In this document: positions 4,029 through 37,871 of the stretch, piece after piece | Layout: every line of letters starts with the position of its first letter | How positions within the stretch are numbered: the stretch's first letter is position 1 | Origin: Limnothrix sp. CACIAM 69d | Lineage (GTDB): Bacteria > Cyanobacteriota > Cyanobacteriia > CACIAM-69d | DNA length: 64,000 nt | Direction of reading: 5' to 3' | Assembly (NCBI GenBank): GCA_001913845.2 | Contig: MKGP02000003.1 | Location: forward strand, 124,001 to 188,000 | Made by a program: the position numbers and the translations under genes | Notes under the pieces: model-generated | Databases searched by the model: none | The model's input: only the letters and a program-made list of their open reading frames with translations | What the model was told of the DNA's origin: nothing

Positions 4029-4250
4029 GGGGATGTTTGAAAAGTCTCTGGAAGCTCTGGTTAAGCCGCTTGTCTGCATTGATCGTTAGCCGCTTGTCTG
4101 CATTGATCGTTAGTCGCTTGTCTGCATTGATCGTTAGTCGCTTGTCTGCATTGATCGTTAGCCCCTTGTTTGCATTGATTGTTAGCTCCTCGCCTGCATT
4201 GATCGCTGGGGTAAGCGGTGCATCAATTTTGGCTGCTCAGACCGCCTCAT
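4028..4250. repeat. Decayed copy of the AGAGGATGTC palindromic element, internally expanded
   Basis: The left terminus (AGGGGATGTTTGAAAAG, 4028-4044) and right terminus (CATCAATTTTGGC then CTCAGACCGCCTCA, ending near 4250) match the ends of the 133-bp element seen intact at 32234, 38631 and 41801. The palindromic core is lost. In its place the part that normally follows the core is repeated six times (4064-4207). The element begins on the last base of the bioF stop codon. The remaining 4251-4481 is the gyrB upstream region, in which I see no further feature. Confidence 0.8.
4064..4207. repeat. Six tandem copies of a 24-bp unit
   Basis: The unit AGCCGCTTGTCTGCATTGAT plus CGTT is repeated at 4064, 4088, 4112, 4136, 4160 and 4184 with exact 24-bp spacing. 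Units 1 to 4 are almost identical; units 5 and 6 are diverged towards the sequence of the parent element (AGCCCCTTG...). This points to amplification of an internal piece of the repeat element rather than an independent origin. Confidence 0.95.
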
Positions 4251-24104: not shown

Positions 24105-24830
24105 TTAAAAGTCCGTATTCACGAACTTACCGGCCAGCTCCGTGGGCGTTTTGCCCAACACCAGACCCAAGGTTTTGAAAACCCCATTGTCGTTGAACGT
24201 AATCGCCGTACTGGGCGTGGAGCCGCCGCCGGAATCGTTCAAAGTGATCGCCAGCAGTTGCAATTGACTTTCCTGCAAGCCACCGGTTAGGCCGATGCGA
24301 TCGTTTCCGGTGCCAAAATCCACGATGAAATCCGCAGCGATCGCCCCGCTGGCATCGGCCACCGCCGCCGCGTCCCGTCGCAACACCAATAGGTCATCGC
24401 CAGCCCCACCCACCAGGGTATCTTGGCCCAAGTCGCCCACCAGGGTATCGTTGCCCTCTTCGCCATTCAGGAAATCGTTATCCTGCCCCCCCCGCAGGAT
24501 GTCGTTACCCACGCCACCCAAAATCAGGTCATTGCCCTTGTTGCCACTGAGTACGTCATCCCCAGTGGAGTTGAGGCCATCGCCCACCAATAGATCATCG
24601 CCTTGACCACCATAGAAGGTGTCATTGCCCCCCAAACCATAGAGGCTGTCGTTGCCCAGGTTGCCGTAGATGATGTCCGCTTGGGCACTGCCGGTGATTT
24701 GGTCATCGCCCCCCAAACCTCGCACGCCCGCCGGGGTGGTGCGGAGCACGTCCGCCGACAGCGAACTAGTGGAGAAAAAGTTATTGGTATCGTCGAGATC
24801 GTAAAACGGGGGGTTAGGGCCAATAGCCAT
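24105..24830 (-). CDS. RTX (hemolysin-type calcium-binding) repeat protein
   Basis: 241 aa. After a short N-terminal lead, residues about 38-150 are built of roughly eleven GGxGxDxxx nonapeptides (for example GGNDTFYGG, GGVGNDILR, GGAGDDLLV) that fold into a calcium-binding beta-roll. Residues 165-241 form the C-terminal module often found after RTX repeats in cyanobacteria (DFIVDFGTGNDRIGL). RTX proteins are normally exported by type I secretion through a C-terminal signal; no such transporter is in this window. No catalytic domain is attached, so the function may be structural or surface-related. A second RTX gene lies at 52294. Confidence 0.88.
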   Translation of the reverse strand: MAIGPNPPFYDLDDTNNFFSTSSLSADVLRTTPAGVRGLGGDDQITGSAQADIIYGNLGNDSLYGLGGNDTFYGGQGDDLLVGDGLNSTGDDVLSGNKGNDLILGGVGNDILRGGQDNDFLNGEEGNDTLVGDLGQDTLVGGAGDDLLVLRRDAAAVADASGAIAADFIVDFGTGNDRIGLTGGLQESQLQLLAITLNDSGGGSTPSTAITFNDNGVFKTLGLVLGKTPTELAGKFVNTDF

Positions 24831-25254: not shown

Positions 25255-28200
25255 TTACGGATTGGTCACCCCCTCCAAGGCCGCGTCGGTTTCGTCGTAG
25301 AGGGCTTGCAGTTGGCCAACCACAGACTCATCGGCGGCCCAAAACCCACGGCCATTAGCTTCCAACAGGCGACCAACAATGTTGCGGAACGCTTCCGGAT
25401 TGGCGCGGCGCAGGCGATCGGCCATGGCTCGATCGAGGGCGTAGGTTTCGGCGGCTCCGTCATAGACCCAGCGATCGGCAAAATCCGTGGTGCCGCTCCA
25501 ACCCAACAGGGCCGTCATCCGTTGGGAAATTTCAAAGGCCCCGCCGGAGCCCTGGGCGGCCATGGCTTCGGCCCACTTGGGATTCAGCAATTTAGTGCGA
25601 TATTCCAACCGCAAGAGGCTGTTTAAATCGCGGGGTTGGGTGTTTTTGCCGAAACTTTCCACAAAACTCGCGGTGACGGGGCGCTGTTGCTGTTGTTCAG
25701 CGGCACGCTTCAAGGCTCCGGTGTTGGCGTAGTATTCCTGGATATCCGTTAGGCCATATTCCACGGAATCGATTTCTTGGACAATGCGCCCGGTGGTGGC
25801 CAAGAGCCGATCGAGCACTTCTGGGCGGGCTTGCCCCCGATCGTGCCGACCGTAGCTAAAGGCATTGCGCGATCGCCAGGTTTGGGCCAGCTCATCACCA
25901 GACTCCCAATTCCCATCATTGACGCGATCGTTCACCAAGGAGCCAAAATCCCCCGCCGGGTTCGAGAAAAGCCGAGCGCTGGGATTTTCCACCCCTTGGG
26001 CCTGAAGTTCCAGGGCATGTTTACGAATGAAGTTTTGTTCGATCGGTTCGTCGGCCGCCGCCGCCCGCGCAAACAGATCATCCAAAAGTTCCAAAATATT
26101 GGCGAAACTGTCTCGAAAAATGCCTGATAAATTGGCTAACACATCAATGCGAGGACGACCCAACTGAGCCAGGGGAATTAATTCATAGCGCACAATCCGG
26201 CCCGTGCCTTCCTTAATTGGCTCTGCGCCCACCAATTCCAACAAAATGCCCAAGGATTCACCCTTGGTTTTAATGGCATCCAGACCCCAAAGCATCACGG
26301 CAATGGTTTCGGGATAGCTGTCCGGTTTCTGACCATGTTCCTGTTGGTGTTGGGCAATCAGTTGCCGGGCGATCGCTCGGCCCCGTTCATAGGCTCCTGG
26401 GGAGGGCATTCGGTAAGGATCAAGGGCGTGAATATTGCGGCCCGTGGGCAATGCGCCGGGCCCGTCCCGCAACAGATCTCCCCCCGGTGCAGGCGGAATA
26501 TATTCCCCATTTAAGCCCCGCAATAGATTAGTCAGTTCATCGGTATTTTGGTTCAGCAAATCCCGCAAACGAATTGCTTCTTGAATCTGTTCTGAGACCT
26601 TGGGATCCAACTCAAACGATCGATTGGGATATTCCTGCTGGAACCAATATCGATAGGCATTCAGGGGGCGATCGAGGTCGGATCCTTGGGCGATCGCTTC
26701 CAAGACCGATCGGGGCAAATCCACCTCAAAATAGGCTTCTAAATAGGACAACAGTTGCTCAGAATTAGGTGCAGTTCCCAACACATGCAACCCACTGGAA
26801 AAGAGATGCTGTTCTAGTTCCTGAAGGTATTGATAGACCCTTGCAAAGTAGCGATCGAGCAAATCGGGGCCAAACAACTTCAGGGTTTCCGCACTCAGTT
26901 CCACCCCCAATTGTTGTGCTTCCGGCAGCGGACAATCCCGATCGAGTCCCGTATCCATTAACCGTTGGGCGATCGCATCCCGCAGGGCCGTATTCGCCTG
27001 CGAATCCTCGCGATATTCCGCAATTAAATCACGCAAATTCACCAGTTCCTTATATAAACCGGCTCGCCCATAGGGAGGCACATTGTGGGAAATCAACACC
27101 CCATAGCCCCGGCGTTTTGCCAAGATAGACTCCGAAGGATTATTCGCCGCATAGATATACAAATGGGGCAGATTTCCTAACAAAATATCTGACCAAGAAT
27201 AGCCCGTGTTGCCCAAGGGAGATCCCGGCAACCATTCCACCGTTCCATGCATTCCAAAATGGACGATCGCGTGGGGTTGCCAAACCCGCTGCAACCATTG
27301 ATAGAACGCCGCATATTGGGGATGGGGAGTCAAGTCTCGCTCAAACATCAAGCGCATGGGATCGCCTTGCAAACCCAAAGGCGGCTGCACCCCAATCCAA
27401 ACATTTCCAAAGTAAACACCCCCGATATGCAACTCATCCCCAAAGGTTTTAATACCCGATTCCGTGAGACCACCCCATTGTTTTTGAATCCGAGAACTGC
27501 CGAGGTATCCTAACCATTGATCAAGGATTTGAGCCGGAACCCAGCCATCATTCAAGGGAGCCTGGTGTGGGTGCGATCGGGAAGGATGGCCCAAAGACCA
27601 ACGATCATCGGCAGCTTTCACCTGTTGAATAATCGTTTCACCGTCGGTGGGCAATTCACCCACGTTATAGCCCTGAGCTTGCAATGATTCAAGCAGCTTC
27701 AGGAGCGATCGGGGAACATTCAACAGGGCCGCTGTTCCCGTTGCACCATACCCCGGCGGAAAGCCATACAAAATAATCGCCAGCTTGCGATCGCGCGGTG
27801 GTGTTTTTCGCAGTTGAATCCAATTCTTGACACGACTGGTTAACCGTTGAACACGCTCCGGAATCAGGTAAATGTCATCTCCAACTAAGCCACCCAAGGG
27901 CACGGTGTCGATCGCCCCGTCCAGCTCCGGCAGGGCATACAGCACCACACTTTGGAGACCACCAATTCCCTGTCTTGTCCAGGATTTTAGGTCTTGAATG
28001 AGCAAAGGTGCGGCAACTAAATAGGGCACATTTTTAGCTGCCAAAATTCGCTGGGCCACTGCCACCTGTCGCCCAGCTTCCATGGAACCAGCGGGGCCGC
28101 CCACCAGCGGAAACCCGATCGTGGAAATAATTGCATCCACCAACACCGCATCCGCCGCCAGGGACTTTAATTCCCGATCGCCCTGGGCCCGTTGTTGCTG

Positions 28201-29124
28201 TTCATGGGTGGTGGTTAGCCAATCTCGAACAATCACATGGGCTTCCACACCATTAATAAAAATGGGCAGAGGCAGCAAGCCCGCCGCTTCAAAATAGCGA
28301 ATCAGTTGAGGAATATAAGCCTGTTGCGTCACCACATGTTTTCGGTAGAGCAAAATGGCTACTACCGGACGATCGGAATCAATCTTTGAGGCTTGGGTTG
28401 TTGATTGTTCTGGATCGTTAATCAAAGGATCCAGTAACTGCGGTAAACGCTGTTGACGATACCAGTTCAAATAATCTTGGGGATTTAAAAAATAGCCCGC
28501 ATATTCGGGATGCAATAACCCCATATTGGGCGTTTCAATGGGTGGGGCAATGTCCCCGATCGAGAGACCTAAATATTTTTCAGCCAAAATCCAGAGCATG
28601 GCGGCCACATTTTCCAAGCCACCGGCATTCCAATAGCCATAGATAATGAGCCAATTGCGCAAATCTTGTACCTTTTGAATGGGCACAAATTTCAGCAGCT
28701 TGGGCCCAGTTTTTAAAAAGCTGAGATAACCAGCTAATCGATCTTCTTCGCGGCCGCTGGAGAATTTACTGAGAATGAACTTCACGGGTTTTGGCATTCC
28801 CGAGGGCTTGTCACCAATTTTGAACGCCCCAATTTGAGTGAGGGAAATTAATTCCAAAGCCGACTCAAAAACCAAACGAATGGGAATATGTTGCACCCGA
28901 TCGCGCAACCAAAGCACCTGCTCATAGTCAAAAATTAGGCTGGCAAAAAACACATCGGCTTCTGCTAAAGCTGCGGCCACCCGATCGGGTTGTTCCGTAA
29001 TATCACGATCGGTAAAGGTGGTCACTTGCAATTGTGGACAACGCTCGATCGCCCGGTGGGCAGCTTTTCGGTACAAATCGGCGTTAAAAGTCTCGAACCC
29101 AGCAATGAGAACAATGCGCTTCAT
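25255..29124 (-). CDS. Magnesium chelatase subunit H / CobN family large chelatase subunit
   Basis: 1289-aa porphyrin-binding subunit of an ATP-dependent metal chelatase (ChlH/BchH-CobN superfamily). The DUF3479-type N-terminal region starts directly with KRIVLIAGFETFNADLYRKA. The core has the invariant segments HFGMHGTVEWLPG and NPSESILAKRRGYGVLISH. The C-terminus includes the ARPEVLDRLLATTGRIVQ segment and the GWSGTTDFADRW motif. Cyanobacteria usually encode two such proteins: true ChlH (about 1330 aa, a different N-terminus) and this shorter type, annotated variously as BchH-like or CobN. The N-terminus here fits the second type, so insertion of Co or Mg cannot be decided. No chlI/chlD or cob gene is adjacent. 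There is no clear ribosome-binding site. Confidence 0.9.
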   Translation of the reverse strand: MKRIVLIAGFETFNADLYRKAAHRAIERCPQLQVTTFTDRDITEQPDRVAAALAEADVFFASLIFDYEQVLWLRDRVQHIPIRLVFESALELISLTQIGAFKIGDKPSGMPKPVKFILSKFSSGREEDRLAGYLSFLKTGPKLLKFVPIQKVQDLRNWLIIYGYWNAGGLENVAAMLWILAEKYLGLSIGDIAPPIETPNMGLLHPEYAGYFLNPQDYLNWYRQQRLPQLLDPLINDPEQSTTQASKIDSDRPVVAILLYRKHVVTQQAYIPQLIRYFEAAGLLPLPIFINGVEAHVIVRDWLTTTHEQQQRAQGDRELKSLAADAVLVDAIISTIGFPLVGGPAGSMEAGRQVAVAQRILAAKNVPYLVAAPLLIQDLKSWTRQGIGGLQSVVLYALPELDGAIDTVPLGGLVGDDIYLIPERVQRLTSRVKNWIQLRKTPPRDRKLAIILYGFPPGYGATGTAALLNVPRSLLKLLESLQAQGYNVGELPTDGETIIQQVKAADDRWSLGHPSRSHPHQAPLNDGWVPAQILDQWLGYLGSSRIQKQWGGLTESGIKTFGDELHIGGVYFGNVWIGVQPPLGLQGDPMRLMFERDLTPHPQYAAFYQWLQRVWQPHAIVHFGMHGTVEWLPGSPLGNTGYSWSDILLGNLPHLYIYAANNPSESILAKRRGYGVLISHNVPPYGRAGLYKELVNLRDLIAEYREDSQANTALRDAIAQRLMDTGLDRDCPLPEAQQLGVELSAETLKLFGPDLLDRYFARVYQYLQELEQHLFSSGLHVLGTAPNSEQLLSYLEAYFEVDLPRSVLEAIAQGSDLDRPLNAYRYWFQQEYPNRSFELDPKVSEQIQEAIRLRDLLNQNTDELTNLLRGLNGEYIPPAPGGDLLRDGPGALPTGRNIHALDPYRMPSPGAYERGRAIARQLIAQHQQEHGQKPDSYPETIAVMLWGLDAIKTKGESLGILLELVGAEPIKEGTGRIVRYELIPLAQLGRPRIDVLANLSGIFRDSFANILELLDDLFARAAAADEPIEQNFIRKHALELQAQGVENPSARLFSNPAGDFGSLVNDRVNDGNWESGDELAQTWRSRNAFSYGRHDRGQARPEVLDRLLATTGRIVQEIDSVEYGLTDIQEYYANTGALKRAAEQQQQRPVTASFVESFGKNTQPRDLNSLLRLEYRTKLLNPKWAEAMAAQGSGGAFEISQRMTALLGWSGTTDFADRWVYDGAAETYALDRAMADRLRRANPEAFRNIVGRLLEANGRGFWAADESVVGQLQALYDETDAALEGVTNP

Positions 29125-29176
29125 GGTGATGGAGGGTAGTGCGAGCGGAATTTAACGCAGGAGATTAGCAATCGAT

Positions 29177-29352
29177 AGTCGGTCGGCAATCGATTAGTAA
29201 TCGATTAGTAATCGATCGGCAATCGATCGAAAACTAACCAAAAGTTCATCGAAAACCAACCAGACATTGATCGGAACCTGATCGAAGCTTGATCGAAATT
29301 GAACCGGCCCTTGACCAGAATTTGACCAGAATTTGACCAAAATTTGACCAGA
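29177..29352. repeat. Array of sixteen phased 11-bp units
   Basis: From 29177 to 29352 the sequence divides without gaps into sixteen 11-mers. Examples: AATCGATTAGT (29188 and 29199), AATCGATCGAA (29221), CATTGATCGGA (29265), ACCTGATCGAA (29276), GCTTGATCGAA (29287), CCTTGACCAGA (29309), ATTTGACCAGA (29320 and 29342). Consensus NNNTGAYCGAA. The array starts 52 bp before the start codon of the chelatase gene, within the divergent promoter region 29125-29570; no gene is seen in that gap. Confidence 0.9.
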
Positions 29353-29570
29353 ACTGAGGTCGATCGCCCCTTGGGAGCCAGGCGGAGCCACTTGTTAAGC
29401 TAGCATTACCTGACTTTTCGCCGGGCTGTTTCCCTGGGGCCCTGTCGTTCGAGCAAAACGCAATTGCCATCGTCCAAAGACTCCGGATCCTGGCCGGGCA
29501 GCGGTGACCAATTACGCCCCAGCCTATCTATTTTGACGAAATTTTTACGAAACCTGGACTGGAGAAACCC

Positions 29571-30545
29571 ATGATCCCCAACTTTTTTCCCACATTCCAA
29601 AGCCCTGAGAGTGATGCCGCCGGGACAACTTGGCAAAAGGTGGCGATCGCTGTGGTTCATGGCATCGGAGCCGGTGATCCTGACTATAACAGCGGCAAAG
29701 CTGACCAACCGGAATTTATTCGTAGCCTGCAAGCTAATTTGATCGATCGCTTCAGTAAGCTAGGCATTTCTGCCAAGGAATATCATCAGCGGTTCGTGAT
29801 GGCTCCCGTGTATTGGGCAACGGTTTTGGAAGGAAACCAACAGGATTTGTGGGCCCGATTCCAGCGTCAAAGTGCCATGAACTGGGATCGAATTCGAGAA
29901 TTTATGGTGTCCTTTGTTTCCGATGCCATTGCCTATCAGGTTAGTCCGCGCGGCCGCCATTCCTATCACGCCATTCACCGCTTTTGTGCCCAGACCCTCC
30001 ATGAACTTGCTCAAAAAGCCGGGCCCAAAGCGCCCCTTTGCGTGATTGGCCACAGCCTTGGTTCGATCGTTTCCTATAACTATCTTCTGGATTTGCAAGC
30101 GGAATTTGGGAACAACACCGAAGCAGAATCGCTCTTTCGAGAATCGGTATTGCGTCAAGTGGGAAATAGTCCCTTGGAGCGGGGCGAAACCCTCAGTTTG
30201 TATTATACCTTGGGCAGTCCCCTGGCCCTTTGGACACTGCGCGATCGCGATGGGGGCTTGCCGATTCAGTTTCCGGCCCCTCGTCTAACAGAACATTATC
30301 CTCAACTGAACTCAGCCACCGAATGGGTGAATGTTTACGATTCTGATGATGTGATTGCCTATCCATTACGACCCATTAATTCAGCTTTTCAACGGGCAGT
30401 GAAGGAAGATTTGAACGTGAATGCGGGAGAAGTTTGGGAAAGTTGGAATCCGCTTTCCCACAATGGCTACTGGCAAAATCCGGCAACGGGCGATCGCATC
30501 GCCCGATCGCTCCTGAACCTCTCTCGAAGGATCAATGGCCGCTGA
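29571..30545 (+). CDS. Alpha/beta hydrolase-fold protein (lipase-like)
   Basis: 324 aa. The first strand VAIAVVHGIGAGD provides the oxyanion-hole region typical of lipase-like hydrolases, and VIGHSLGSIVSYNYLLDL carries the nucleophile elbow G-H-S162-L-G. A candidate acid and His lie downstream (YDSDDVIAY and SHNGYW). There is no signal peptide, so it is probably cytoplasmic. Substrate unknown. The start ATG is the first in frame after a stop, with a GGAG (29559-29562) about eight bases upstream. It is divergent from the chelatase gene and separated from it by the 11-bp array. Confidence 0.78.
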   Translation: MIPNFFPTFQSPESDAAGTTWQKVAIAVVHGIGAGDPDYNSGKADQPEFIRSLQANLIDRFSKLGISAKEYHQRFVMAPVYWATVLEGNQQDLWARFQRQSAMNWDRIREFMVSFVSDAIAYQVSPRGRHSYHAIHRFCAQTLHELAQKAGPKAPLCVIGHSLGSIVSYNYLLDLQAEFGNNTEAESLFRESVLRQVGNSPLERGETLSLYYTLGSPLALWTLRDRDGGLPIQFPAPRLTEHYPQLNSATEWVNVYDSDDVIAYPLRPINSAFQRAVKEDLNVNAGEVWESWNPLSHNGYWQNPATGDRIARSLLNLSRRINGR

Positions 30546-37548: not shown

Positions 37549-37716
37549 AGAATCGCTGCTGCGGGGGGTGAGGATTGGGCAAACCATTGGCCCAGAGGCG
37601 CAATGTTGCAGCGCCAACCGGCCGCCAAATGGCAGGACAAATCATAGCAACTTTCCATTGCTTCCCCGCCTCGGAGCCGATCGAGTTCTGCCCGATCACC
37701 CAACCACTTGTTATGG

Positions 37717-37871
37717 GGGCAAGGGGCTTAAGCCCCTTGTCTGGGTCGATTCAAGCATCCTGTTAGGACTGAATCGGCTGCCGATTGTTAATTGTTGTAG
37801 GGGCAAGGGGCTTAAGCCCCTTGTCTGGGTCGATTCAAGCATCCTGTTAGGGCTGAATCGGCAGCCGATCG
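37717..37871. repeat. 84-bp tandem duplication covering the end of exbD and a palindromic core
   Basis: The block from the core CAAGGGGCTTAAGCCCCTTG (37720-37739) through TCAAGCATCCTGTTAGG to CTGAATCGGCTGCCGAT is repeated 84 bp later (core 37804-37823). About 71 bp match with three or four mismatches. The second copy contains the stop and the last seven or so codons of exbD; the first is a non-coding duplicate of that end. Confidence 0.88.

Follow-up and report, generated by a model that had tools for sequence, protein, structure and literature searches.

The Chelatase Locus and the Array

The window analyzed here is a stretch of 64 kb from Limnothrix sp. CACIAM 69d. It includes a minus-strand gene (25255-29124) for a CobN/Mg-chelatase H-type protein of 1289 aa and, in divergent orientation, a plus-strand ORF of 324 aa (29571-30545), which matches the Thioesterase alpha/beta-hydrolase family weakly and below threshold. 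Between them lies an array of degenerate 11-bp units, the core of which lies at 29177-29352. The array is separated by 52 bp from the chelatase start and by 218 bp from the divergent ORF, in agreement with the gene context given in a preliminary description of this DNA. Clear ChlH and CobN genes are found elsewhere in the genome (G000:C1 and G000:C27, respectively), and the copy at 25255-29124 is a third large-subunit paralogue. It passes the BchH model and falls below the cutoff of the ChlH model PRK12493.

In the core array, sequence identity is 0.661 at lag 11, 0.643 at lag 22, and 0.559 at lag 33, and 0.591 and 0.529 at the next two multiples of 11. The best identity over lags 3-39 did not exceed 0.468 in 2000 dinucleotide shuffles, and the autocorrelation proposed earlier as a check thus revealed a peak above the shuffled controls. 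This interval is the top lag-11 window within the whole 64 kb. TRF reports the array as five separate rows because the units are so divergent. In a segment scan the periodic signal extended from 29157 to 29355 (about 18 copies) and took in a phase break of 4 bp near 29171-29177 relative to the sister species. The preliminary description of sixteen consecutive 11-mers without an indel is exact for 29177-29352, but the absence of indels depends in part on the choice of interval, the left border of which, 29177, coincides with this phase break. The consensus NNNTGAYCGAA proposed there fits part of the array, while the column-majority consensus over the array is AATTGATCRGA. Variation in most columns consists of transitions.

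No second copy of the array was found elsewhere in the genome. A sigma-70 promoter scan found no promoter, and an Rfam search gave only a sub-threshold miRNA match, which was taken as chance. Minus-strand ORFs run across the array, but they would be frameshifted between the sister species by indels of 11, 3, and 4 bp, and the array was therefore rejected as coding DNA.

Comparison with Congeners

The genus is represented by three genomes, one per species: this genome (G000), that of a sister species (G001), and that of a more distant species (G002). The chelatase is 97% identical to its counterpart in G001 and 86% identical to that in G002. In G001 the array is present at the same place. Exactly one complete 11-mer is absent from its part corresponding to the homogeneous TTGACCAGAAT units (29298-29352), one unit near the chelatase end is shorter by 3 bp, and the array end is longer by 4 bp. 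Upstream of the orthologous chelatase gene of G002 there are about six units of period 13 and no lag-11 signal; since the far-side neighbor differs there, this is a comparison of the upstream region of the gene and not of a strictly orthologous interval. The preliminary description had proposed comparing length and period between strains; among the congeners, the length differs in G001 and the period in G002. It had also named unrelated sequence in relatives, combined with normal promoter activity, as evidence against its reading, and the first of these was observed for the upstream region of G002.

The array differs from that of G001 at 18 of 162 sites (11%). This is above the outer flank (29353-29570; 9/217, 4%) and the short segment 29125-29160 (0/36), and nearer to the fourfold sites of the chelatase gene (89/608, 15%). 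The changes are concentrated at the chelatase-proximal end (29161-29231; 13/68), which also carries the 3-bp and 4-bp indels, while the most degenerate central units (29232-29297), in which a 22-bp dimer structure is visible, are almost unchanged (3/66). All 19 differences in the array are transitions. A special mutator was considered for this and rejected, as the proportion of transitions in pooled arrays (71/92) matches that in their flanks (52/67), about 0.77 in both. The 19 of 19 are probably the result of mutational bias plus chance.

Over 29060-29160, which takes in the opening 65 bp of the chelatase gene together with the 36 bp preceding it, the sister species are identical, although 19% of sites differ in the adjoining end of the array. 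The identical stretch is perhaps a constrained leader or promoter.

Unit-to-unit identity depends on distance along the array (Mantel r -0.36, p 0.0012), dropping from 0.66 to 0.45. Neighboring units are more alike than distant ones, which is the pattern predicted by local duplication and decay and not by selection for one site.

Intergenic Arrays in the Genus

Intergenic imperfect tandem arrays were screened in 580, 283, and 117 kb from the three congeners, about 979 kb (about 1 Mb) in total. The screening revealed 38, 24, and 19 arrays, respectively (81 in total), and the same scan of shuffled sequence revealed none. Their periods are mostly 10-16, with a mode of 14, and their unit sequences are unrelated. 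Periods 12-15 are commoner than 11, which is not favored in these genomes. Scaling of the sampled figure to 4.57 Mb suggests about 300 such arrays in the genome of Limnothrix sp. CACIAM 69d. The array upstream of the chelatase gene has the highest copy number in the sample (18), and its counterpart in the sister species is next. They are followed by arrays of periods 13, 12, and 14, which are in register over roughly 175-210 bp at lower identity.

Other cyanobacteria show a different distribution. Under one common mask, 43 of 53 arrays from the genus have periods of 10-16, versus 3 of 49 intergenic arrays from the outgroup (79 loci), 32 of which have period 7. Upstream of the chelatase gene, arrays were found at 8 of the 79 loci of other cyanobacteria, mostly of period 7, and a period-11 array at none of them. 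A small sample from two other genera of the family contained three arrays in one genus (periods 14, 15, and 21) and none in the other.

Three further repeats were recognized in the window. The 24-bp intergenic array at 4062-4209 (about 6 copies, 90% lag identity) is the top-scoring intergenic array sampled. As judged only by eye, a 27-bp periodicity at 24364-24563 apparently corresponds to minus-strand sequence coding for nonapeptide repeats of the calcium-binding (RTX-like) type. At 37708-37869 an 84-bp unit is tandemly duplicated with 94% match.

Length Change and Retention of Register

Syntenic arrays of the two sister species differ in length by exactly 14, 14, 15, 14, 16, 11+11, and 11 bp; two others show no length change and one shows a change of 8 bp. 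Differences of one or two whole units are thus seen in the chelatase array and six others. When ten arrays were pooled, sister divergence was 10.5% inside and 3.4% in the 100-bp flanks.

The size distribution of intergenic indels between the sister species (syntenic contigs C35/C23, C27/C20, and C1/C1) peaks a second time at 10-16 bp (44/164), and 22 of the 38 indels of 11-16 bp are tandem copies. With a strict ORF mask, indels of 10-16 bp account for 16 of 79, versus 9 of 68 in control pairs, and the tandem ones number 9 versus 2; the peak is weaker under this mask, and the excess over control pairs is suggestive only.

For DNA outside arrays, a ratio of about 0.05 indels of less than 10 bp per substitution was derived. 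As short indels are so few, many substitutions accrue before register is lost. A crude neutral simulation was run at a ratio of 0.05 phase-breaking indels to one substitution, and perfect register was retained in 3-7% of its 16-unit arrays, and in fewer at higher ratios. The proportion would be higher with block duplication, of which the 22-bp dimer is a visible case, or with preferential copying of intact units, neither of which the simulation includes. Such retention is mildly unusual for a single array, but for the longest of 81, with breaks at its end, it does not call for selection.

Origin of the Array

The array is very likely a degenerate minisatellite generated by slippage or tandem duplication, and not a helix-phased platform kept by selection. 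Among the three options raised in the preliminary description, this corresponds to the drifting satellite. An 11-bp intergenic stretch would have been multiplied in tandem by replication slippage (or unequal exchange), and transition-biased point changes would then have built up in the units. The homogeneous parts would still gain and lose whole units, while the most degenerate units would be effectively frozen. The register can survive this process because point substitutions far outnumber odd-sized indels in this DNA, because slippage itself shifts whole units, and because blocks of several units, such as the 22-bp dimers, can be copied jointly. Slippage is the presumed molecular agent, and the array probably has no function; none is indicated. 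Several observations count against the minisatellite reading. The array is an outlier in its class, with the most copies of all sampled, and the low rate of simulated register retention is softened but not removed by the choice of the longest of 81. The exclusively transitional differences and the lack of strict orthology of the G002 interval also count against it.

The preliminary description had favored selection on a spacing close to one helical turn, for instance in an array of protein-binding half-sites on one face of the helix or in a bent or nucleoid-protein platform. A platform of curved DNA or for a nucleoid protein would be consistent with the period of 11, the 16 units in intact register, and the seven A-tracts in the array. 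At 10.5 bp per turn, however, sixteen 11-bp steps drift by 8 bp, about 270 degrees or three quarters of a turn, and the units are therefore spread around the helix instead of sharing one face. The A-tracts likewise lack net phasing at 10.5 bp, and helically phased curved DNA was rejected on this ground; their phasing vector is 0.72, a score equaled or exceeded in 88% of intergenic windows, and they align only if the turn is set to 11.0 bp. The register is broken between the sister species by the 3-bp and 4-bp indels, and further points against selection on helical spacing are the period of 13 in G002 and the genus arrays of other periods, which outnumber those of 11 and some of which, with periods of 12, 13, and 14 bp, also keep their register over a long stretch. 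A selected platform is accordingly very improbable.

Half-sites for a DNA-binding protein that regulates the divergent pair, such as a response regulator of the OmpR/PhoB type, have a slightly better but still very small probability. The sites of PhoB and of cyanobacterial SphR are 8-bp direct repeats with a 3-bp linker, which gives an 11-bp step (PMC1906773). Upstream of the chelatase gene, TGGTCAA-like units follow one another head to tail, and a three-unit match to the generic pattern TGRYCRA-N4 occurs at two places in the genome outside the array. On the other hand, the unit does not resemble the Pho boxes published for E. coli (CTGTACTA as printed in that paper) and for SphR (CTTAACCT), and it is conserved neither along the array nor across species. 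Similarity that decays with distance is not expected from selection for one site, and arrays of unrelated units and other periods are common in the genus. Lowest in probability is a contingency locus, in which copy number would tune or switch the expression of the divergent genes and the repeat would be kept for its mutability. The sister species do differ in copy number, and the start codon is only 52 bp away, but arrays at many other intergenic places are just as variable, and the short homogeneous stretches and degenerate units would lower mutability.

On its most likely reading, the array alone is ordinary repeat biology. It is a warning against inferring selection from a kept period, because point substitution leaves the register intact. 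The larger interest is the preference of the genus for units of 10-16 bp, while other cyanobacteria have mainly heptamers. Tentatively, the genus may have a lineage-specific process of slippage or tandem duplication with a step of about 11-16 bp, which continually seeds unrelated intergenic arrays, whereas other cyanobacteria commonly show a step of 7 bp; the array upstream of the chelatase gene would be its longest sampled product. According to work cited in PMC4679880, the heptamer preference is ascribed to the stretch of DNA that interacts with the polymerase, and this idea could therefore become testable in a lineage whose step size differs.

Comparison with Known Repeat Systems

Cyanobacterial short tandemly repeated repetitive (STRR) heptamers and other heptanucleotide repeats, for which slippage was proposed as the source (PMC4679880 and references there), resemble the present arrays in being intergenic, tandem, and abundant in cyanobacterial genomes. 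They have a period of 7 and recurrent sequences, however, whereas the array here has period 11 and the genus arrays have unrelated units of 10-16 bp. Lag-7 identity of the array is 0.243 versus 0.661 at lag 11, and it was not classified as an STRR heptamer. The Pho boxes of PhoB and SphR (PMC1906773) are likewise direct repeats upstream of a gene with an 11-bp step. They comprise two or three copies, unlike the 16-18 copies here, which have another sequence and whose unit and register are not conserved between relatives. Assignment to the Pho box was rejected, as AATTGATCRGA does not match the cyanobacterial CTTAACCT when compared by eye.

Bacterial satellites with units of 10-260 nt, including minisatellite/VNTR loci, have been surveyed (PMC6749651). 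The array is similar to these in its head-to-tail units, at least four copies, and whole-unit change between relatives, and in the mostly intergenic location of such loci where the period is not divisible by three. It is far more degenerate than the regular satellites that the survey counted, and it belongs to a genus-wide set that has no common unit sequence. Its tandem units are in register beyond chance within the range of about 10-60 bp, its copy number differs by one whole 11-mer between related genomes, and its adjacent units are more similar than distant ones. With one genome per species compared, the array works like a minisatellite/VNTR locus.
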